Source: Candidatus Hydrogenedens sp. (GTDB taxonomy: Bacteria; Hydrogenedentota; Hydrogenedentia; Hydrogenedentales; CAITNO01). From it: 33,754 bases of DNA. How positions within the stretch are numbered: the first letter of the stretch is position 1; every line of letters begins with the position of its first letter. The notes below the pieces were generated by a model. It made no database searches, had not been told where the DNA came from, and saw only the letters and a program-made list of their open reading frames with translations. The stretch lies in the NCBI GenBank assembly GCA_012522755.1, contig JAAYJV010000153.1, positions 1 to 33,754 of the forward strand, written 5' to 3'. Shown here piece by piece: positions 10,107-33,754 of the stretch. A program made the translations under genes and the position numbers.

Positions 10107-10311
10107 GGGACTATCCTTGTTGTGGTACTTTCGTAGCCTTTTCAGTGAAATGAATATAACAGAATACCGGTCCGGATCCCCTCTCGGGCCACCCGTCCGG
10201 ATGCATCAATGTATCACGGGACAGAGGGACTCTTCAAAAGACAACGACTTTTATTTGAATTGTATCCAGGGATTTTCTCATCTCACCGGCAATCCTGCAT
10301 CCCCTTCCGTC

Positions 10312-10331
10312 ATTCCTGCGCACGGAGGAAT
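10312..10331. repeat. REP-like dyad
   Basis: ATTCCTGCGCACGGAGGAAT has six-base complementary ends (ATTCCT and AGGAAT). It resembles the short 'GTCATTCC...GGAATC' dyads common in bacterial gaps. Only one copy was noticed. Confidence 0.45.
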
Positions 10332-10403
10332 CTTATCGTGATCATTAGGACGTTGAAAAAATAACAGCTTTCTGTACGCGGTAATAAGCGCAGAGACATG
10401 CAT

Positions 10404-10779
10404 CCTGGGAACGCCAATTTCCACATTGGCATACAGCGTGTATGGTTCTTAAAGCATATACAGGTAATGGTGCGGCACGTGGGCTGTTGTCATACAACAA
10501 ATATAGAAAGATTTACGACTGTAGGCTTCTCTTTTTTTTGTGGCATTCAAGATCATCATCCCGAATCTTTATGGTTGCGGTGTGATAGCGCTTATTCGCC
10601 TTGTGCCAATGAGGGCATTGGCGCTCCCCCGTTATAGGTCTTTTCACCGGAAAGTTTTCACAGTTGTCTGTGAATCCAAGCCTTGTAATTTTAGAAAACC
10701 ATATCATGTCGTGGCAACACCAATAGCTTGTTGAAGTTATCATGCGTAGTCTGCCAATGTGGAAATTGGCGTTCCCAGG
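10404..10779. mobile_element. MITE-like element with perfect 28-bp terminal inverted repeats
   Basis: Bases 10404-10431 and 10752-10779 are exact reverse complements over 28 bp. Each arm contains the small hairpin core GCCAATTTCCACATTGGC. Inside, at 10603-10628, is a second hairpin unit (GCCAATG, AGGG, CATTGGC), followed by TTCACCGGAAAGTTTTC. There is no coding sequence, and flanking target duplications are not obvious. The same end sequence recurs at 24057-24084 and 33596-33623, so the family is dispersed. A non-autonomous element is one reading; a REP/BIME-like hairpin array is the other. Confidence 0.55.
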
Positions 10780-10800
10780 GTGCGCGAATTTACGCCTTTA

Positions 10801-10920
10801 TTTCATCAGTGTTTATCCGTGTTCATCTGTGGTTCAATGGGGCGTTGCTTCGCTTCAAAAACTTTGGTGAAAAAATCTTCTTCGTGCGCCTTCGTACCCG
10901 ACCTGCTCTCGTGGTTAAAA
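10801..10920 (-). repeat. 'CCACAGATG' and 'CACGAAGG' phrase repeats, inverted copy
   Basis: Read on the minus strand, this block contains CACGAAGG-type phrases followed by CCACAGATGAACACGG and ACACTGATGAAATAAAG. A related direct copy of the second phrase lies at about 23997-24040, and of the first at about 33497-33540. Non-coding. Confidence 0.6.
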
Positions 10921-13878: not shown

Positions 13879-15729
13879 ATGTCAGCCATTTTCTTCAGGC
13901 GGGCTGCTTTGTCTCCTCTTTTTTGTACCGCACTCATTACTGTATATATAGCGGGCTGTTCTCTGCCGAAAGCAACAGAGAGCTCCCATGACCACGGCCA
14001 CGGGCACAGCCATGGCCATGATCACCATGATCACGACCACGACCATGAAGACGAAGGCTCTTCTGTAACCATGTGGACCGATGAGCTGGAGATCTTCGTC
14101 AAATTTGATCACCTGGATGCCGGCACAGACCAGGAATTCGCCGTCTATCTCAGCGCTCTTGATACAGGCCTGCCCGTGGTGGGGCCCGACCTGAGCTTGC
14201 AGCTGAAAAAAGAAGGCGGGAACACCCGGCTGGAAGCCAAAACACAGGCTGATCCCATGGGCGCTCATAAAACAAAGCTGACTTTCCCCTCTCCGGGATT
14301 CTGGGAGTTGAGCTTTGAAGTGCCCTCCGGGGATGCAAAAGAGCTGATCTCCTTCCCCCACCTGGATGTGCACGATCATGGGCATACCCATGATCATACC
14401 CATGATCATGACCATGATCACGCGCACGATCACGACCATGACCACGACCATGATCACGATCACGACCACGACCATGATCACGATAGCGACTGTGATCGCG
14501 ACCATGACCACGGGCATGCACATGGTACAAACTATGTGACCAATGATGATCTTCCGGCTGCGTCGATTCACTTTGAAAAAGATCAACAGTGGGTTCTTCC
14601 GCTGGTTACACAGCTTGTGGGGCGTGACAAGCTGGTGGAAGGTCACCGCATACCCGCCACGGTGCAGGAAACTCCCCATTCGCGCAGCATTCTGACGGCT
14701 CCTTTGAGCGGGCGATTGCTTGCACCGGAATCTCAGGACTTCCCGAATTTGGGTGATCTTGTGGAGGAAGGTCAGGTGCTCGCGGGTGTACTGCCCACCT
14801 TGCAGGGAGGTGATGCTCTCGCGCGGGAATCCAATATACACAGTCTGCAAGGGCAGCGTACGGAACTGGCCGTGCAGGCTGCGCAGGCCCGGGGCGAGGC
14901 GGAACGTGCCCGTGCCCTGGTGATGCAGCATGAGGCCGCTCTCAGTCGTGCGGAACGCTTGCAGGAAGCCAAGGCGGGATCTCAGCGGGAAGTGGAAGAG
15001 CAACAGAGCGCTTTGGCTTCCGCCCGGGCTTTGTTGAGAGAGGCGGAACAGACGGAAGGCCAGGTCAGGGCTGCGTTGAACGCTTTGCCAACCCTCGAAT
15101 CGAGAGAGCAGGAAGGCGTGACAGCCTGGATCAAGTCGCCCATTGCCGGCAGAATTACCCGTCTCATTGCCGGAGCAGGCGCTCAGGTGGATGGTGGTCA
15201 GACGGTGATAGAAGTGGTGAATGCCCAGGAGGTGCTCATTGAAGGGCAGGTCCCTGAAGCACTGGCTCCCGTTTTGTCACAGCCTTTGCAGGCCCGTTAT
15301 GAACTGCCGGCTTTCCCCGGAGAGTTGTATGCCATTGAAGCGCCTGAGAATGGTCGGGAACCCTGGCTGCTTCCGCAGGTGAAAGAAGACAGCCGGACGG
15401 TTCCCCTTCTTTTCTACACGAAGAATGCAGAAGAACGACTCCGTATCGGCATGACGCTCACACTCCTCGCCGATGGCAAGCGTGCGGATAATGCCCTGCA
15501 AGTGCCTCTCTCCGCTGTGGTGGACGAAAACGGCATTCCCACGGTCTATGTGATGCTCACGGGAGAGCATTTTCAGAAGCGCCCGGTTCGGCTGGGAATC
15601 AGCGACGGGGTCATGACAGAAGTTCTTGACGGCCTGTGCGAAGGGGAACGTGTTGTGGTGCGTGGCGCCTATGCCGTGCGTCTTGCCGGATTGGCCGGTG
15701 CCGGTGTCGGCTCCGCTCACGTACATTAA
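13879..15729 (+). CDS. CusB/CzcB-type RND membrane-fusion lipoprotein with two His/Asp tracts
   Basis: This 616-aa periplasmic adaptor links the inner-membrane pump to the outer-membrane channel. A signal peptide ends in a lipobox-like YIAGC (C27). Two His/Asp/Gly tracts occur at residues 37-57 and 165-216, flanking a ~100-residue beta-rich region. The C-terminal two thirds is a HlyD/RND adaptor: a lipoyl-like half motif (TAPLSGRLLAPE), a long coiled coil (about 315-400), the second lipoyl half (IKSPIAGRITRLIAGAGAQV), and a barrel region ending in VVRGAYAVRL. The tracts most likely bind metal cations and deliver or sense them. The length exceeds typical adaptors (about 400 aa) because of the N-terminal addition. 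AGGAAAGGAAAA precedes the ATG. The pump gene follows after 12 bases. Confidence 0.9.
   Translation: MSAIFFRRAALSPLFCTALITVYIAGCSLPKATESSHDHGHGHSHGHDHHDHDHDHEDEGSSVTMWTDELEIFVKFDHLDAGTDQEFAVYLSALDTGLPVVGPDLSLQLKKEGGNTRLEAKTQADPMGAHKTKLTFPSPGFWELSFEVPSGDAKELISFPHLDVHDHGHTHDHTHDHDHDHAHDHDHDHDHDHDHDHDHDHDSDCDRDHDHGHAHGTNYVTNDDLPAASIHFEKDQQWVLPLVTQLVGRDKLVEGHRIPATVQETPHSRSILTAPLSGRLLAPESQDFPNLGDLVEEGQVLAGVLPTLQGGDALARESNIHSLQGQRTELAVQAAQARGEAERARALVMQHEAALSRAERLQEAKAGSQREVEEQQSALASARALLREAEQTEGQVRAALNALPTLESREQEGVTAWIKSPIAGRITRLIAGAGAQVDGGQTVIEVVNAQEVLIEGQVPEALAPVLSQPLQARYELPAFPGELYAIEAPENGREPWLLPQVKEDSRTVPLLFYTKNAEERLRIGMTLTLLADGKRADNALQVPLSAVVDENGIPTVYVMLTGEHFQKRPVRLGISDGVMTEVLDGLCEGERVVVRGAYAVRLAGLAGAGVGSAHVH
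13987..14051 (+). repeat. His/Asp-coding tandem tract 1
   Basis: Short in-frame units of CAC/CAT with GAC/GAT/GGC encode residues 37-57 of the adaptor. Alternating codons keep the protein pattern while breaking up exact DNA repetition. Confidence 0.8.
14371..14525 (+). repeat. His/Asp-coding tandem tract 2
   Basis: Repeats of GACCAT and GATCAC hexamers encode about 50 residues (165-216) dominated by alternating His and Asp. This is the most repetitive stretch of the window and is coding, not CRISPR. Confidence 0.9.
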
Positions 15730-15741
15730 GGAGCGCCAGCC

Positions 15742-18700
15742 ATGATGGATAAATTGATTCAATGGTCTGTGACCAACCGCTATCTTGTCATCGCTCTTTC
15801 CCTGGTGGGAACTGTTTTCGGTTTGTATCTGTGCTTTCATACGCCCGTGGACGTTTTCCCTGATCTGACAGCCCCCACAGTGGTTGTGTTGACCGAAGCG
15901 CCGGGATATTCGCCATCGGAGGTGGAAAATCTCGTCACTTTTCCTCTGGAAACAACGCTTAACGGTGCGCCCGGAATACGGCGGGTACGCTCCGCTTCCA
16001 TGCCCGGTTATTCCATTGTCTGGTCGGAATTCGACTGGGGAGAAGAGATGAATGTGGCGCGACAGATTGTTGCCGAGCGTGTTCAGCTCACAGCGCCCGA
16101 TCTGCCCGAAGATATCATGCCGCCTATTCTTGCGCCGCCCACATCGCTCATGGGCGAAATCCAGATAGCGGCTCTTCACGCCGAGAATCGTTCCATGACG
16201 GATTTGCAGAATTATGCGGAAATTGTTCTGGCCCGTCGCCTTCTGGCCGTGCCCGGTGTGGCGCAGATCACCGTTGTAGGCAGTGGCGATCGGCAATATC
16301 AGGTCGCTTTGAAGCCTGATCGTCTTGCAGCTCTGGGAATCACCCTGGCGGAAGTGGCCGAAGTACTGGCGGAAAACAATATGAACATCCCCGCCGGATT
16401 CATTTCTGAGCGGGGCACGGAATATCTCGTTACGGGGCTCGGTCGTCTCCAGACTGTGGAGGATATCGGTAAAGTTGTGGTGACGACCCGTCAGGGCGTA
16501 CCGGTTTTCGTGAGCGATGTGGCTGAGGTACGGCTCGGTGCGGCACCCACACGGGGTACGGGCTCCGCCAATGGAAAACCCGCCGTCCTGCTCATCATCC
16601 AGAAGCAGCCCCAGGCCAATACACTGGAACTTGATAAAGTGCTCGAAGAAGTCTTTGCCGAAGAGGAAGCGAAACTGCCCACGGGTATGGAGATGAATAC
16701 GAGCCTCATGAAACAGGCTGATTTCATCCGTATCGCCGTGAGTAATGTGGCCAATGCCATTCGCGACGGGATGATCATCGTCGTGTTGATCATGGCTTTT
16801 TTCCTGCTCAGTGGCAAGGCGCTTTTCATCACCCTGACCGCCCTGCCCATATCGCTGATCATCGCTGTTCTGTCCATCCAGTTCTTTGGCGGCTCCATCA
16901 ATACCATGACTCTGGGCGGGCTGGCCATTGCCATCGGTTCGCTCATGGATGATGCCGTCATCGACGTGGAAAACACCATACGCCGTCTTCGTCTGAGCCA
17001 GGATGAGATTGTCGGAAACAAGCCCCGGGCTCTGCGCATTGTATACGAGGCGAGCTCTGAAGTGCGCTCCGCCATTGTTTTCGCAACGGTGATTATCACG
17101 GTTGTCTTCGTGCCTTTGTATACGCTGGAGAATGTGGAAGGGCGACTGCTCCGACCTCTGGCAACATCGTATATAGTGGCTATCTTCGCTTCTCTGCTTG
17201 TGGCGCTCACCCTCACCCCCGCACTGGAGGCGGTGTTGCTGCCAGGAAGCCGTATCGTGTCGAATCCCCGCGAACCCCGGGTGGCCTCTCTGGTGCGACG
17301 GGGATACAATCTGATTTTGAGGCCTGTACTGCGACATCCCTGGCTGGTGAGTCTGCCCGTAGCAGCCGTGTTCATCGCATCTCTCGTTGGATTTTCTTTC
17401 ATGGGACAATCTTTCCTTCCCGATTTCAACGAAGGTGCCTTGAATGTGGTGGCCAATACTTTGCCGGGCACTTCTCTCGAAGAATCAAACCGTATCGGTC
17501 TTCAGGTGGAACGGCTTCTCATGGAAGTGCCGGAGATCACCTCTGTGGCCAGGAAGACAGGCCGAGGCGAATTGGACGAACATGCTCAGGGTATTGAAGG
17601 CTCGGAGATGGAGGCCACCTACCTGCTCACTGATCGGTCCAAAGATGAGATGCTCGTGGAGGTGCGTGAAAAGCTGGACAAAGTGCCGGGGATCAGCTAT
17701 GGCATAGGCGGTCCCATTTCGCACCGTATCGACCATATGCTTTCCGGAGCGCGCTCCAGTGTGGCCATCAAATTCACGGGCGAGGATCTGTATGTGCTGC
17801 GCGAGCTGGCCGAGGAAGCCCAGGAGCGGATCAGACAGATACCCGGTGCGGCCGATATCGCCATGGAGCCCCAGACGGATGTGCCTGAAGTGAGCGTGCG
17901 CTTTGATCGCGACCTCCTCGCGCGACAGGGGATCTCATTTGAAGAAGCGGGCGTCACACTCCGTGCGGCTCTTTTCGGTGCGCCTGTCACACGCATTTAT
18001 GAGGGACGCAATGCCTATGACCTTGTGCTGCGCCTGGCGGAAGACAAAGATGCGACCCTGACATCGCTGGAAAAACTGCCCTTGCGCAACAGTGCCGGTG
18101 CCCTGGTGCCGCTGCACACCGTCGCAACCGTTTTTCGTGGAAGTGGTCCCAACGTGATCACCCGCGATCAGGTGCAACGGAAAATCTTTGTCACCTGCAA
18201 TCCTTCCGGACGGGACGTTGCCTCGCTTGTCCGTGATATTCGCACAGAAATAGATCCTCTCCTCGCCGGGAAAGAAGGATACTCCGTTCATTATGGCGGA
18301 CAATTTGAAAGTGCGGCCGCCGCCTCGGGACGTCTGCTGGCTTCGGGAGCGGTGGTGCTCTTCGGTGTCTTCGCCCTGCTCCTGATGGCTTTCAAAAACA
18401 TACGGGATGCCCTCTTTGTCATGGCCAGCCTGCCCCTCGCTCTCATTGGCGGTGTGGTGGCTGTCTTTCTGATGGGCGGCGTCCTTTCCGTAGCCTCCAT
18501 TATCGGATTCATCAGCGTTTTCGGTGTGGCCGCCAGAAACGGGATCATGCTGGTTCAGCATATCCGTCATCTTCAGTTGGAAGAGGGCGTGACTGATTTT
18601 GCCGAGGCTGTGCGTCGTGGTGCCGTGGAGCGGATTGTTCCCGTGTTGATGACGGCTCTGTCCACAGGATTTGCACTCATCCCGCTGGTTCTGGCCCACG

Positions 18701-18846
18701 AGGCGCCGGGCAATGAGATTCAGAGTCCCATGGCTGTTGTCATTATCGGAGGCCTGCTCACCGCAACCTTTTTGAATATGATTGTCGTGCCCACCCTGTA
18801 TCTGCGGCTCGGTCGTCCGGCCCTTATGAATGAAAACATCACCTGA
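15742..18846 (+). CDS. CusA/CzcA-family heavy-metal RND efflux pump
   Basis: This 1034-aa proton-driven inner-membrane transporter has the standard RND length, twelve membrane segments and two large periplasmic loops. Its start, with TPVDVFPDLTAPTVVV and EAPGYSPSEVENLVTFPLE, is typical of the heavy-metal efflux branch. In membrane segment 4 the motif GLAIAIGSLMDDAVIDVEN (near residue 395) carries the charged residues of the proton relay. It expels monovalent or divalent metal ions from the periplasm through the tripartite complex with the adaptor and TolC-like protein on either side. AAGGAG lies eight bases before the ATG, overlapping the upstream stop. Cu/Ag versus Zn/Co/Ni specificity is not decided: I did not verify the methionine residues that distinguish CusA. 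Confidence 0.95.
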   Translation: MMDKLIQWSVTNRYLVIALSLVGTVFGLYLCFHTPVDVFPDLTAPTVVVLTEAPGYSPSEVENLVTFPLETTLNGAPGIRRVRSASMPGYSIVWSEFDWGEEMNVARQIVAERVQLTAPDLPEDIMPPILAPPTSLMGEIQIAALHAENRSMTDLQNYAEIVLARRLLAVPGVAQITVVGSGDRQYQVALKPDRLAALGITLAEVAEVLAENNMNIPAGFISERGTEYLVTGLGRLQTVEDIGKVVVTTRQGVPVFVSDVAEVRLGAAPTRGTGSANGKPAVLLIIQKQPQANTLELDKVLEEVFAEEEAKLPTGMEMNTSLMKQADFIRIAVSNVANAIRDGMIIVVLIMAFFLLSGKALFITLTALPISLIIAVLSIQFFGGSINTMTLGGLAIAIGSLMDDAVIDVENTIRRLRLSQDEIVGNKPRALRIVYEASSEVRSAIVFATVIITVVFVPLYTLENVEGRLLRPLATSYIVAIFASLLVALTLTPALEAVLLPGSRIVSNPREPRVASLVRRGYNLILRPVLRHPWLVSLPVAAVFIASLVGFSFMGQSFLPDFNEGALNVVANTLPGTSLEESNRIGLQVERLLMEVPEITSVARKTGRGELDEHAQGIEGSEMEATYLLTDRSKDEMLVEVREKLDKVPGISYGIGGPISHRIDHMLSGARSSVAIKFTGEDLYVLRELAEEAQERIRQIPGAADIAMEPQTDVPEVSVRFDRDLLARQGISFEEAGVTLRAALFGAPVTRIYEGRNAYDLVLRLAEDKDATLTSLEKLPLRNSAGALVPLHTVATVFRGSGPNVITRDQVQRKIFVTCNPSGRDVASLVRDIRTEIDPLLAGKEGYSVHYGGQFESAAAASGRLLASGAVVLFGVFALLLMAFKNIRDALFVMASLPLALIGGVVAVFLMGGVLSVASIIGFISVFGVAARNGIMLVQHIRHLQLEEGVTDFAEAVRRGAVERIVPVLMTALSTGFALIPLVLAHEAPGNEIQSPMAVVIIGGLLTATFLNMIVVPTLYLRLGRPALMNENIT

Positions 18847-23842: not shown

Positions 23843-24056
23843 GTTGAAAGGACAGAGAGAGCAAGATTTTTTACCACAGAGGGACCACAGCGCTGTATAG
23901 CCGCAACCAAATGTTTTTTCTAATTGAACCAGGTCAATCACGGAACACACGGAAAAAATACATCTTGACCGAAGAGATGACACTGACACGACGTCCCTTA
24001 GAACCACAGATGGACACTGATTTACACTGATGAATTAAAGACCTTGGGTCGCGCAG

Positions 24057-24280
24057 CCTGGGAACGCCAATTTCCACATTGGCACACAGCGTGTGATGAT
24101 CCGGGAAATAAATTGACTTGGTTGCGGCATGATATCTCTCTTCTGTTTATATCTTTCTTGATGCGCCCAAGTCTTTACGTCGCGCCAAAGCTCTACAACG
24201 ACCCACTGTCTTTGCCGCGATGTGTGCCAATGGGGACATTGGCGCTCCCACGATACGACCTTCACCGTCGGAAAGTTTTC
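24057..24280 (+). repeat. Paired-hairpin element, second copy
   Basis: It starts with the same 28 bases as the MITE-like arms (24057-24084, identical) and then CACAGCGTGT. At 24224-24249 it carries the second hairpin unit (GCCAATG, GGGA, CATTGGC, then GCTCCC), followed by TTCACCG and GGAAAGTTTTC. This parallels 10404-10659 in order and spacing, with diverged sequence between. The outer inverted arm of the 10404 element is absent here. Confidence 0.65.
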
Positions 24281-24310
24281 GAAGGCATGAATATGTTTGA
24301 AGGCGTTAAG

Positions 24311-24336
24311 AAAAATGGGCACGGCATGGCGTGCCC
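24311..24336 (-). terminator. Terminator of the beta-helix/DUF4034 gene
   Basis: On the minus strand GGGCACG, a six-base loop and CGTGCCC form a seven-bp GC-rich stem followed by ATTTTTCTT, 10 bases after the stop codon. The stem is a one-mismatch copy of the 20-bp palindrome found near 1337 and 3470. Confidence 0.8.
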
Positions 24337-24346
24337 AGATTTCCTG

Positions 24347-33456: not shown

Positions 33457-33754
33457 CGTAGCGCAGCACAGCCGCAACCAAATGATTTTTTTTAAACCAC
33501 GAAGTCACGAAGGCCACGAAGGTTCACGAAGAAGAAAACTTTTTTACCAGATTGTCAGGGCGTGCGCAAAGATTCAGAAAAGCTCCTGAGACTTGCCTGG
33601 GAACGCCAATTTCCACATTGGCAGGACACCCGGGAAAAGACCATGATTTATGTATGCATTTGACGGGAGAACAAAGACTCAGAGTTTACAAAGGCTTTTA
33701 TTTTATTCTTGGTTGGCAAAAGACCTGTTACCGCATCACTGTTTACAAAATGTC
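33457..33754. other. Repeat-rich tail after the PEGA/SUMF gene
   Basis: This tail holds AGCCGCAACCAAATG at 33470-33484, a run of CACGAAGG phrases (about 33497-33540) and another copy of the 28-base hairpin end (33596-33623). No gene is supported to the window edge. Confidence 0.65.
33596..33623 (+). repeat. Solo copy of the 28-base hairpin repeat
   Basis: Identical to 10404-10431 and 24057-24084 over 28 bases and to the complement of 10752-10779. The partner hairpin unit is not seen before the window ends. Confidence 0.85.

Follow-up and report, generated by a model that had tools for sequence, protein, structure and literature searches.

The feature at 10404-10779 of the window (the whole analysed stretch, 33,754 nucleotides of a Candidatus Hydrogenedens contig) is probably a copy of a genome-wide family of REP/BIME-type repeats, which a RAYT would mobilise on single-stranded DNA. 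Repeats of this type, linked to RAYTs, are known in kind; what is new here is the CTGG head of the repeat and this particular family. Literature searches by REP sequence and by REP/RAYT terms, supplements aside, returned no report of a CTGG head, and the listed matches to REP sequence strings in print all went to one nine-letter string, on unrelated topics. The original prediction, made from the letters alone, had proposed a non-autonomous transposable element or a BIME-like family, and in kind it was right: the copies are inverted REP pairs, and RAYT genes of other genomes in the order bear this arm class at their edges.

Arms, pairs and copies

Each arm consists of a conserved head, CCTGGGARC, followed by an 18-nt hairpin of the form GCC-n5-CC-n5-GGC. 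The window holds the following arms and modules:

10404..10431, + strand: REP arm of type A (CCTGGGAAC + GCCAATTTCCACATTGGC), core match 10408
10605..10631, - strand: variant of REP arm type B, the internal hairpin, core match 10605
10752..10779, - strand: REP arm of type A, exact inverse of 10404-10431, core match 10753
10780..10882, - strand: outer module X past the 28-mer, common to 23954-24056
23954..24056, + strand: outer module X, upstream of the second element
24057..24084, + strand: REP arm of type A of the second element, core match 24061
24226..24252, - strand: REP arm of type B (GGGAGCGCCAATGTCCCCATTGGC) of the second element, core match 24226
24253..24340, - strand: outer module V (ccggaaagttttc-like, by-eye assignment), whose end is a GGGCACGGCATG-type hairpin at 24317
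33596..33754, + strand: canonical 206-bp unit cut by the contig end, with a type A arm and most of the interior, partner arm missing

The predicted exact 28-bp inverted ends are real: 10404-10431 and 10752-10779 are exact inverted 28-mers and, flanks included, match over 35 nt at 94%. Self-comparison of the window finds the same arm again at 24057 and 33596. Besides its two type A arms, A(+) with core match 10408 and A(-) with core match 10753, the element has a third arm, B(-) at 10605, so the supposed internal unit is itself a variant arm. The relative placed at 24057-24280 is genuine as well, but it ends near 24252 and its right arm is of type B, not the same end. What had been taken for a solo end at 33596 is a truncated unit, since the canonical interior continues to the last base of the contig (33623-33754 agrees by eye with the consensus), which stops ahead of where a partner arm could appear at the usual spacing of 176 bp.

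Across the genome of 4,006,924 bases, the 23-nt core has 186 + 167 = 353 matches at up to three mismatches, far beyond chance, and its reversed control has none. We sampled 660 kb of this genome's DNA, of which 422 kb are contigs C8 and C123, part of C78 and the window, the rest being chosen around matches; it contains 133 arms. Among the 69 neighbour pairs less than 400 bp apart, 40 are '+-' (heads outward), 15 '--', 13 '++' and one '-+'. The '+-' neighbours lie mostly 158-198 bp apart with a mode of 176, a spacing held exactly by 17 of the 40, and a paired-arm pattern with the wrong spacing (a gap of 100-130) gave no match. Tandem arm units are 98-99 bp apart, in one array on contig C170 (L102 5371-6061), or 137-149 bp apart. 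In the 206-bp consensus of the 22 canonical units, conservation is 99.5 and 97.8% in the arm columns and 85.1% in the interior.

The repeat thus carries the marks of a REP in the broad sense (a short palindrome with a conserved 5' head and high copy number) and of REPINs and BIMEs (inverted REP doublets with conserved arms and variable spacers, and mosaic arrays). It is mainly extragenic: by a crude ORF caller, 31 of the 42 arms in the 422 kb lie outside called ORFs, which cover 88% of that DNA. The bases upstream of GGGA are CCT in 104 of the 133 arms, CGT in 20 and others in nine; the GT[AG]G head is not what these 133 arms carry, and the family is not placed in the canonical GTAG-type REP superfamily.

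Flanking modules and the congeneric locus

The 28-mer had been proposed as the border of the element; a genome-wide comparison of copies overturns this, as similarity continues past most arms into alternative modules. In the window, 10739-10882 and 23954-24097 form an inverted match of 144 nt at 74%, about 103 nt of it beyond the arm, and almost no repeat extension is found to the left of 10404. Depth profiles of ten elements show copies running some 50-175 bp outward in most, with a sharp drop at the outer points; depth is near 100 at arms and near 25-35 at modules, so that arms are 3-4 times commoner than any module. The outward flanks of 153 arms are of type X in 36, Y in 12, Z in 45 and other in 60; in a less redundant set of 125 arms, X flanks 29, Z 27 and Y seven, none of the three flanks 60, and two are too short. 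Modules, in turn, are followed by an arm in 31/33 (X), 6/6 (Y), 32/32 (Z) and 13/16 (V) cases, matches less than 30 bases from a stretch end or shorter than 25 being dropped, and these ratios are biased upward because much of the DNA was picked around arms. Two of the three V exceptions retain GGGAG and then enter new sequence, a module switch at the head. The family is a mosaic with its joints at the arms.

Of the other genomes searched, G010 alone belongs to this genus. The neighbours of the element align to G010, where 193 bp separate them, compared with 836 bp in the window; in the alignment the whole element block faces a gap. The block around 10404-10779 is therefore absent from G010, which is compatible with insertion here or deletion there, the exact joints not being readable. 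No insertion with exact empty-site borders was caught in this comparison; the flanks of the copies are themselves repeated, and congeneric intergenic DNA is too diverged for exact target-site borders.

RAYT genes and the arm class across the order

A transposase gene with ends matching the arm had been suggested as a check. Such genes exist as RAYTs of the same order, but none of that clade was found in the genome itself. With the RAYT of G011 as query at 1e-25, we found 18 loci in 13 of 68 genomes of the order. Each of the 11 best (E <= 9.4e-33) carries one or more GGANYGC-headed hairpins, and eight do so on both sides of the matched gene region (the hairpin of L194 is imperfect and about 900 bp from the match start), and the seven weaker loci have none. 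Counted over the 11 loci, these hairpins number 35 within the 12.0 kb at the genes, compared with 12 in the remaining 24.5 kb; 100 kb of the genome's own DNA without arms has none. Most are CTGGGARC plus 18 nt with T-CC at the centre, like the window arms; L182 and L184 have variant forms whose loop is three bases long. All five RAYTs of this hairpin-bearing clade that were scanned score above the NF047646 cut-off. In G011, a REP pair lies in frame inside the RAYT gene, where its relatives have no REPs. RAYT open frames at L142 (973-2037), L180 and L181 contain or run through in-frame REP hairpins, so that the predicted protein includes REP peptides (NANLPIG, PGNADVPVG).

The pattern CTGGGARCGCC-n5-CC-n5-GGC matches in 24 of the 68 genomes, with 275 matches in the genome studied here (the most of the 68), 89 in G002, 45 in G011 and 38 in G010. 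Its reverse has one match in all 68 genomes, and an off-register control with one extra N has two, none of them in this genome. In G002, 45 of the 58 listed matches (of 89 counted) bear exactly its RAYT-flanking stem, by eye count. The stems change in a compensatory manner: across 14 aligned arms, 98.8% of cells are paired and four of six pairs changed on both sides, in 18 cells, with a covariation score reached by none of 500 shuffles, although eight RAYT-locus rows and the C167 row of the own genome were picked by hairpin searches, which favours pairing. A count of further pair types was not above shuffles, 497 of 500 reaching it. Furthermore, of 32 distinct stems typed from the pattern listing, 17 obey Watson-Crick pairing throughout the three free positions, compared with 11.5% of mixed halves, and the pattern itself does not demand inner stem pairs. 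REP presence follows RAYT presence only loosely: 7/9 genomes with a RAYT have REPs versus 17/59 without (p = 0.007, with the E cut-off set after the hairpins were seen and the genomes not independent), and 7/13 versus 17/55 when all 13 RAYT genomes are counted. Near L062-like RAYTs of other phyla, hairpins are mostly of the GGAGTGC class, which supports the RAYT-REP principle and not the cognate pair.

The genome itself has two RAYT-like genes, on contigs C167 and C8, scoring 73.9 and 32.9 bits with NF047646 against a cut-off of 80. A RAYT profile search returned only these two distant genes and one match at E = 0.13 in this genome, and only the ortholog of the C8 gene in G010; neither this search nor the G011 query at 1e-25 found a RAYT of the hairpin-bearing clade in either genome. 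The E = 0.13 stretch, on contig C48, was rejected as a RAYT remnant, for it sits within an unrelated 498-aa open frame, which by eye resembles a radical-SAM tRNA-modifying enzyme.

The C167 gene is the one intact RAYT of the genome and by eye retains HYH and a Tyr. Its 3' side carries two hairpins of a second REP class, GGAGTGCGGAAGCcatGCTTCCGC and a variant, and its 5' side carries GAAAC + GCCAATGTCCCTATTGGC, a hairpin of the 18-nt class with a damaged head (the GCCAAT hairpin without the full head). The second class (GGAGTGCGGAAGC class) has 15 pattern matches in this genome and none in G010, several of them as separate inverted units. Such units, with head TTTGGAGTG and some with internal hairpins, occur at L171 (4500-4740), L173 (129-321), L174 and L177, and match the 3' flank of C167. 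The C8 gene (L061) was rejected as the mobiliser, having no hairpin beside it and, by eye, neither the usual Y nor the initial His of HUH (it reads HSIH, and its G010 ortholog L133 reads DSIH). At L061 1426-2136 and L133 1468-2184, the RAYT-like gene is in conserved synteny in the two congeneric genomes with its catalytic HUH and Tyr positions replaced, and is perhaps a domesticated relic.

Hence RAYT genes flanked by the same hairpin class are found in related genomes and not in this one, where the searches also found no cognate full-length RAYT, a usual if not universal companion of REPINs and BIMEs. Possibly the copies are orphans; alternatively, an assembly gap may hide the cognate gene. 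Among the first 100 matches listed, at least 13 contigs start less than 400 bp from an arm; a RAYT flanked by such arms could therefore be missing from the assembly, and a REP family would account for the contigs of this genome often starting or ending in these repeats. According to passages of PMC3686654, overrepresented REPs without a cognate RAYT are quite frequent and are ascribed to RAYT loss or REP switching.

Alternative readings and related systems

A classical MITE, that is, a non-autonomous element with 28-bp terminal inverted repeats cut by a DDE transposase and flanked by a target-site duplication, would explain the exact inverted ends and the absence of the block from the congeneric ortholog. 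It is nevertheless highly improbable. The terminal inverted repeats are not the outer border in all copies; repeat similarity runs 50-175 bp past most arms, X, Y and Z matches are nearly always joined to an arm (31/33, 6/6, 32/32), and arms also stand in direct tandem units of 98-99 and 137-149 bp. Moreover, the 660 kb hold 12 head-outward spans of 0.4-3.5 kb, and of three open frames in them scanned against Pfam none is a transposase (one is a GH3-LysM protein, one a pectate-lyase-like protein and one has no match). The MITE form of the prediction is thus unsupported: copies do not have the 28-mer as a common border, and beyond it the sequence runs on into one of several alternative flanking modules. 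It is less improbable, yet still unlikely, that the real unit is a composite of about 500 bp (module X or Y, arm, core, arm, module Z) that recombination or a different mobile element has spread, with the arms as passengers or joints. The repetition of X, Y and Z, their nearly constant abutment to an arm, their depth of about 25-35 in the sample and its sharp fall at the outer points all speak for such a unit; against it stand the 3-4-fold excess of arms over any module, the several alternative modules next to arms (with none of X, Y or Z in 60/125), and the recurrence of the arm class at RAYT genes in other genomes.

Selection rather than mobility could also maintain the hairpins, as a terminator, an mRNA stabiliser or a site for gyrase or a nucleoid protein, roles ascribed to REPs in passages of PMC8266576. 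The arms are mostly outside ORFs, and long-range folding is stable, 10404-10779 reaching -76.6 kcal/mol as a single strand versus -42.2 for shuffles (z = -8.3). However, taken singly, the three arms of the window show at most slightly better folding than shuffles (z -0.2 to -1.9), and the distribution across the order is patchy, at 24/68 genomes. Arms occur in 16 gene gaps, of which eight are tandem, four convergent and four divergent, versus 153/45/45 for other gaps, hence no clear 3'-end bias. We consider such host maintenance quite unlikely. The RNA-element form of the prediction has likewise gained no positive evidence, with no match in the window to an Rfam family at gathering score and no such 3'-end bias.

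The reading that we favour, a RAYT-mobilised REP/BIME-type family, would work as follows. The arm, an 18-nt single-strand hairpin behind the head CCTGGGARC, is the REP; two inverted arms with heads outward, or a pair plus tandem arms, enclose spacers of mostly ~110-150 nt and so form REPIN/BIME-like non-autonomous elements. A Y1 (HUH-tyrosine) RAYT would recognise head and hairpin on single-stranded DNA, cut adjacent to the head and rejoin elsewhere without target duplication, and strand switching at the arms would give rise to the mosaic of modules. RAYT cleavage at that position would have moved the present copies, their cognate RAYT presumably being lost or outside the assembly. A rather unlikely extension is that the CTGG-headed REPs form a class parallel to GT[AG]G with their own RAYT clade, greatly expanded in a genome that now lacks that clade, and that the surviving RAYT of C167, which is of a different clade and has both REP classes in its flanks, drove the expansion or maintains it today, by cross-mobilisation or a switch of REP class.

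Among known systems, REPs with RAYT/TnpA-REP genes, or 'REPtrons', as portrayed in parts of PMC2817692, PMC8266576 and PMC6006769, are alike in their short hairpin with a conserved 5' head, a copy number in the hundreds with most copies extragenic, inverted pairs, the same hairpin at RAYT gene edges, a stem co-varying between genomes and, as for subclass 2.4 (PMC6006769), in-frame REPs inside the tnpA-REP gene. They differ in that the head here is CTGG+GARC and not GT[AG]G, and in that the cognate RAYT is not found in this genome. Passages of PMC6006769 also describe atypical heads, RAYT subclasses that have REPs and others that lack them, and REPs within the genes of subclass 2.4. The P. putida REP (TGTGGGAGCGGGC..., as given in PMC2817692) has TGGGAGC in common with the arms and differs in the first head base. 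BIMEs (bacterial interspersed mosaic elements) share REPs in both orientations, several alternative spacer and flank modules and tandem reiteration, unlike the long spacers (~110-150 nt) and outer modules (50-175 nt) seen here; most REP-dimer spacers are 20-100 bp in the account given by sections of PMC3733652. The REPIN, as presented in parts of PMC3116915, is likewise a doublet of inverted REPs in which conservation is higher in the arms than in the spacer, with a single long hairpin predicted, but its doublets peak at 71 and 110 bp, whereas the '+-' mode here is 176 and the mosaic extends past the arms. TIRtrons/TIRYTs, in sections of PMC3733652, also have RAYT-like genes flanked by inverted repeats that form moderately repeated families; their GGGGWSAS motif is, by eye, absent from the arms here. 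The present family offers a CTGG-headed REP/RAYT pairing, together with many genomes of a single order for comparing RAYT clade, REP stem and REP abundance. Whether RAYTs need a GTAG head, and whether REPs spread without a cognate transposase, are testable with these sequences.

The window contains further repeats. At 10286-10340 lies a CGTCATTCCTGCG..GGAGGAATC repeat with more than 20 weak matches in G010, which by eye resembles the CGTC-tagged REP superfamily as depicted in sections of PMC3733652. Hairpin repeats of the GGGCACGGCATGCCGTGCCC type occur at 1337, 3470, 24317 and 33102, the one at 24317 being at the outer end of module V and the others elsewhere. Finally, 13879-15729 encodes an HlyD/CusB-like protein with long His/Asp-rich repeats (13988-14520), which adjoins an AcrB-family pump gene (15742-18846) and a TolC-like gene; together, the three possibly form a metal exporter.
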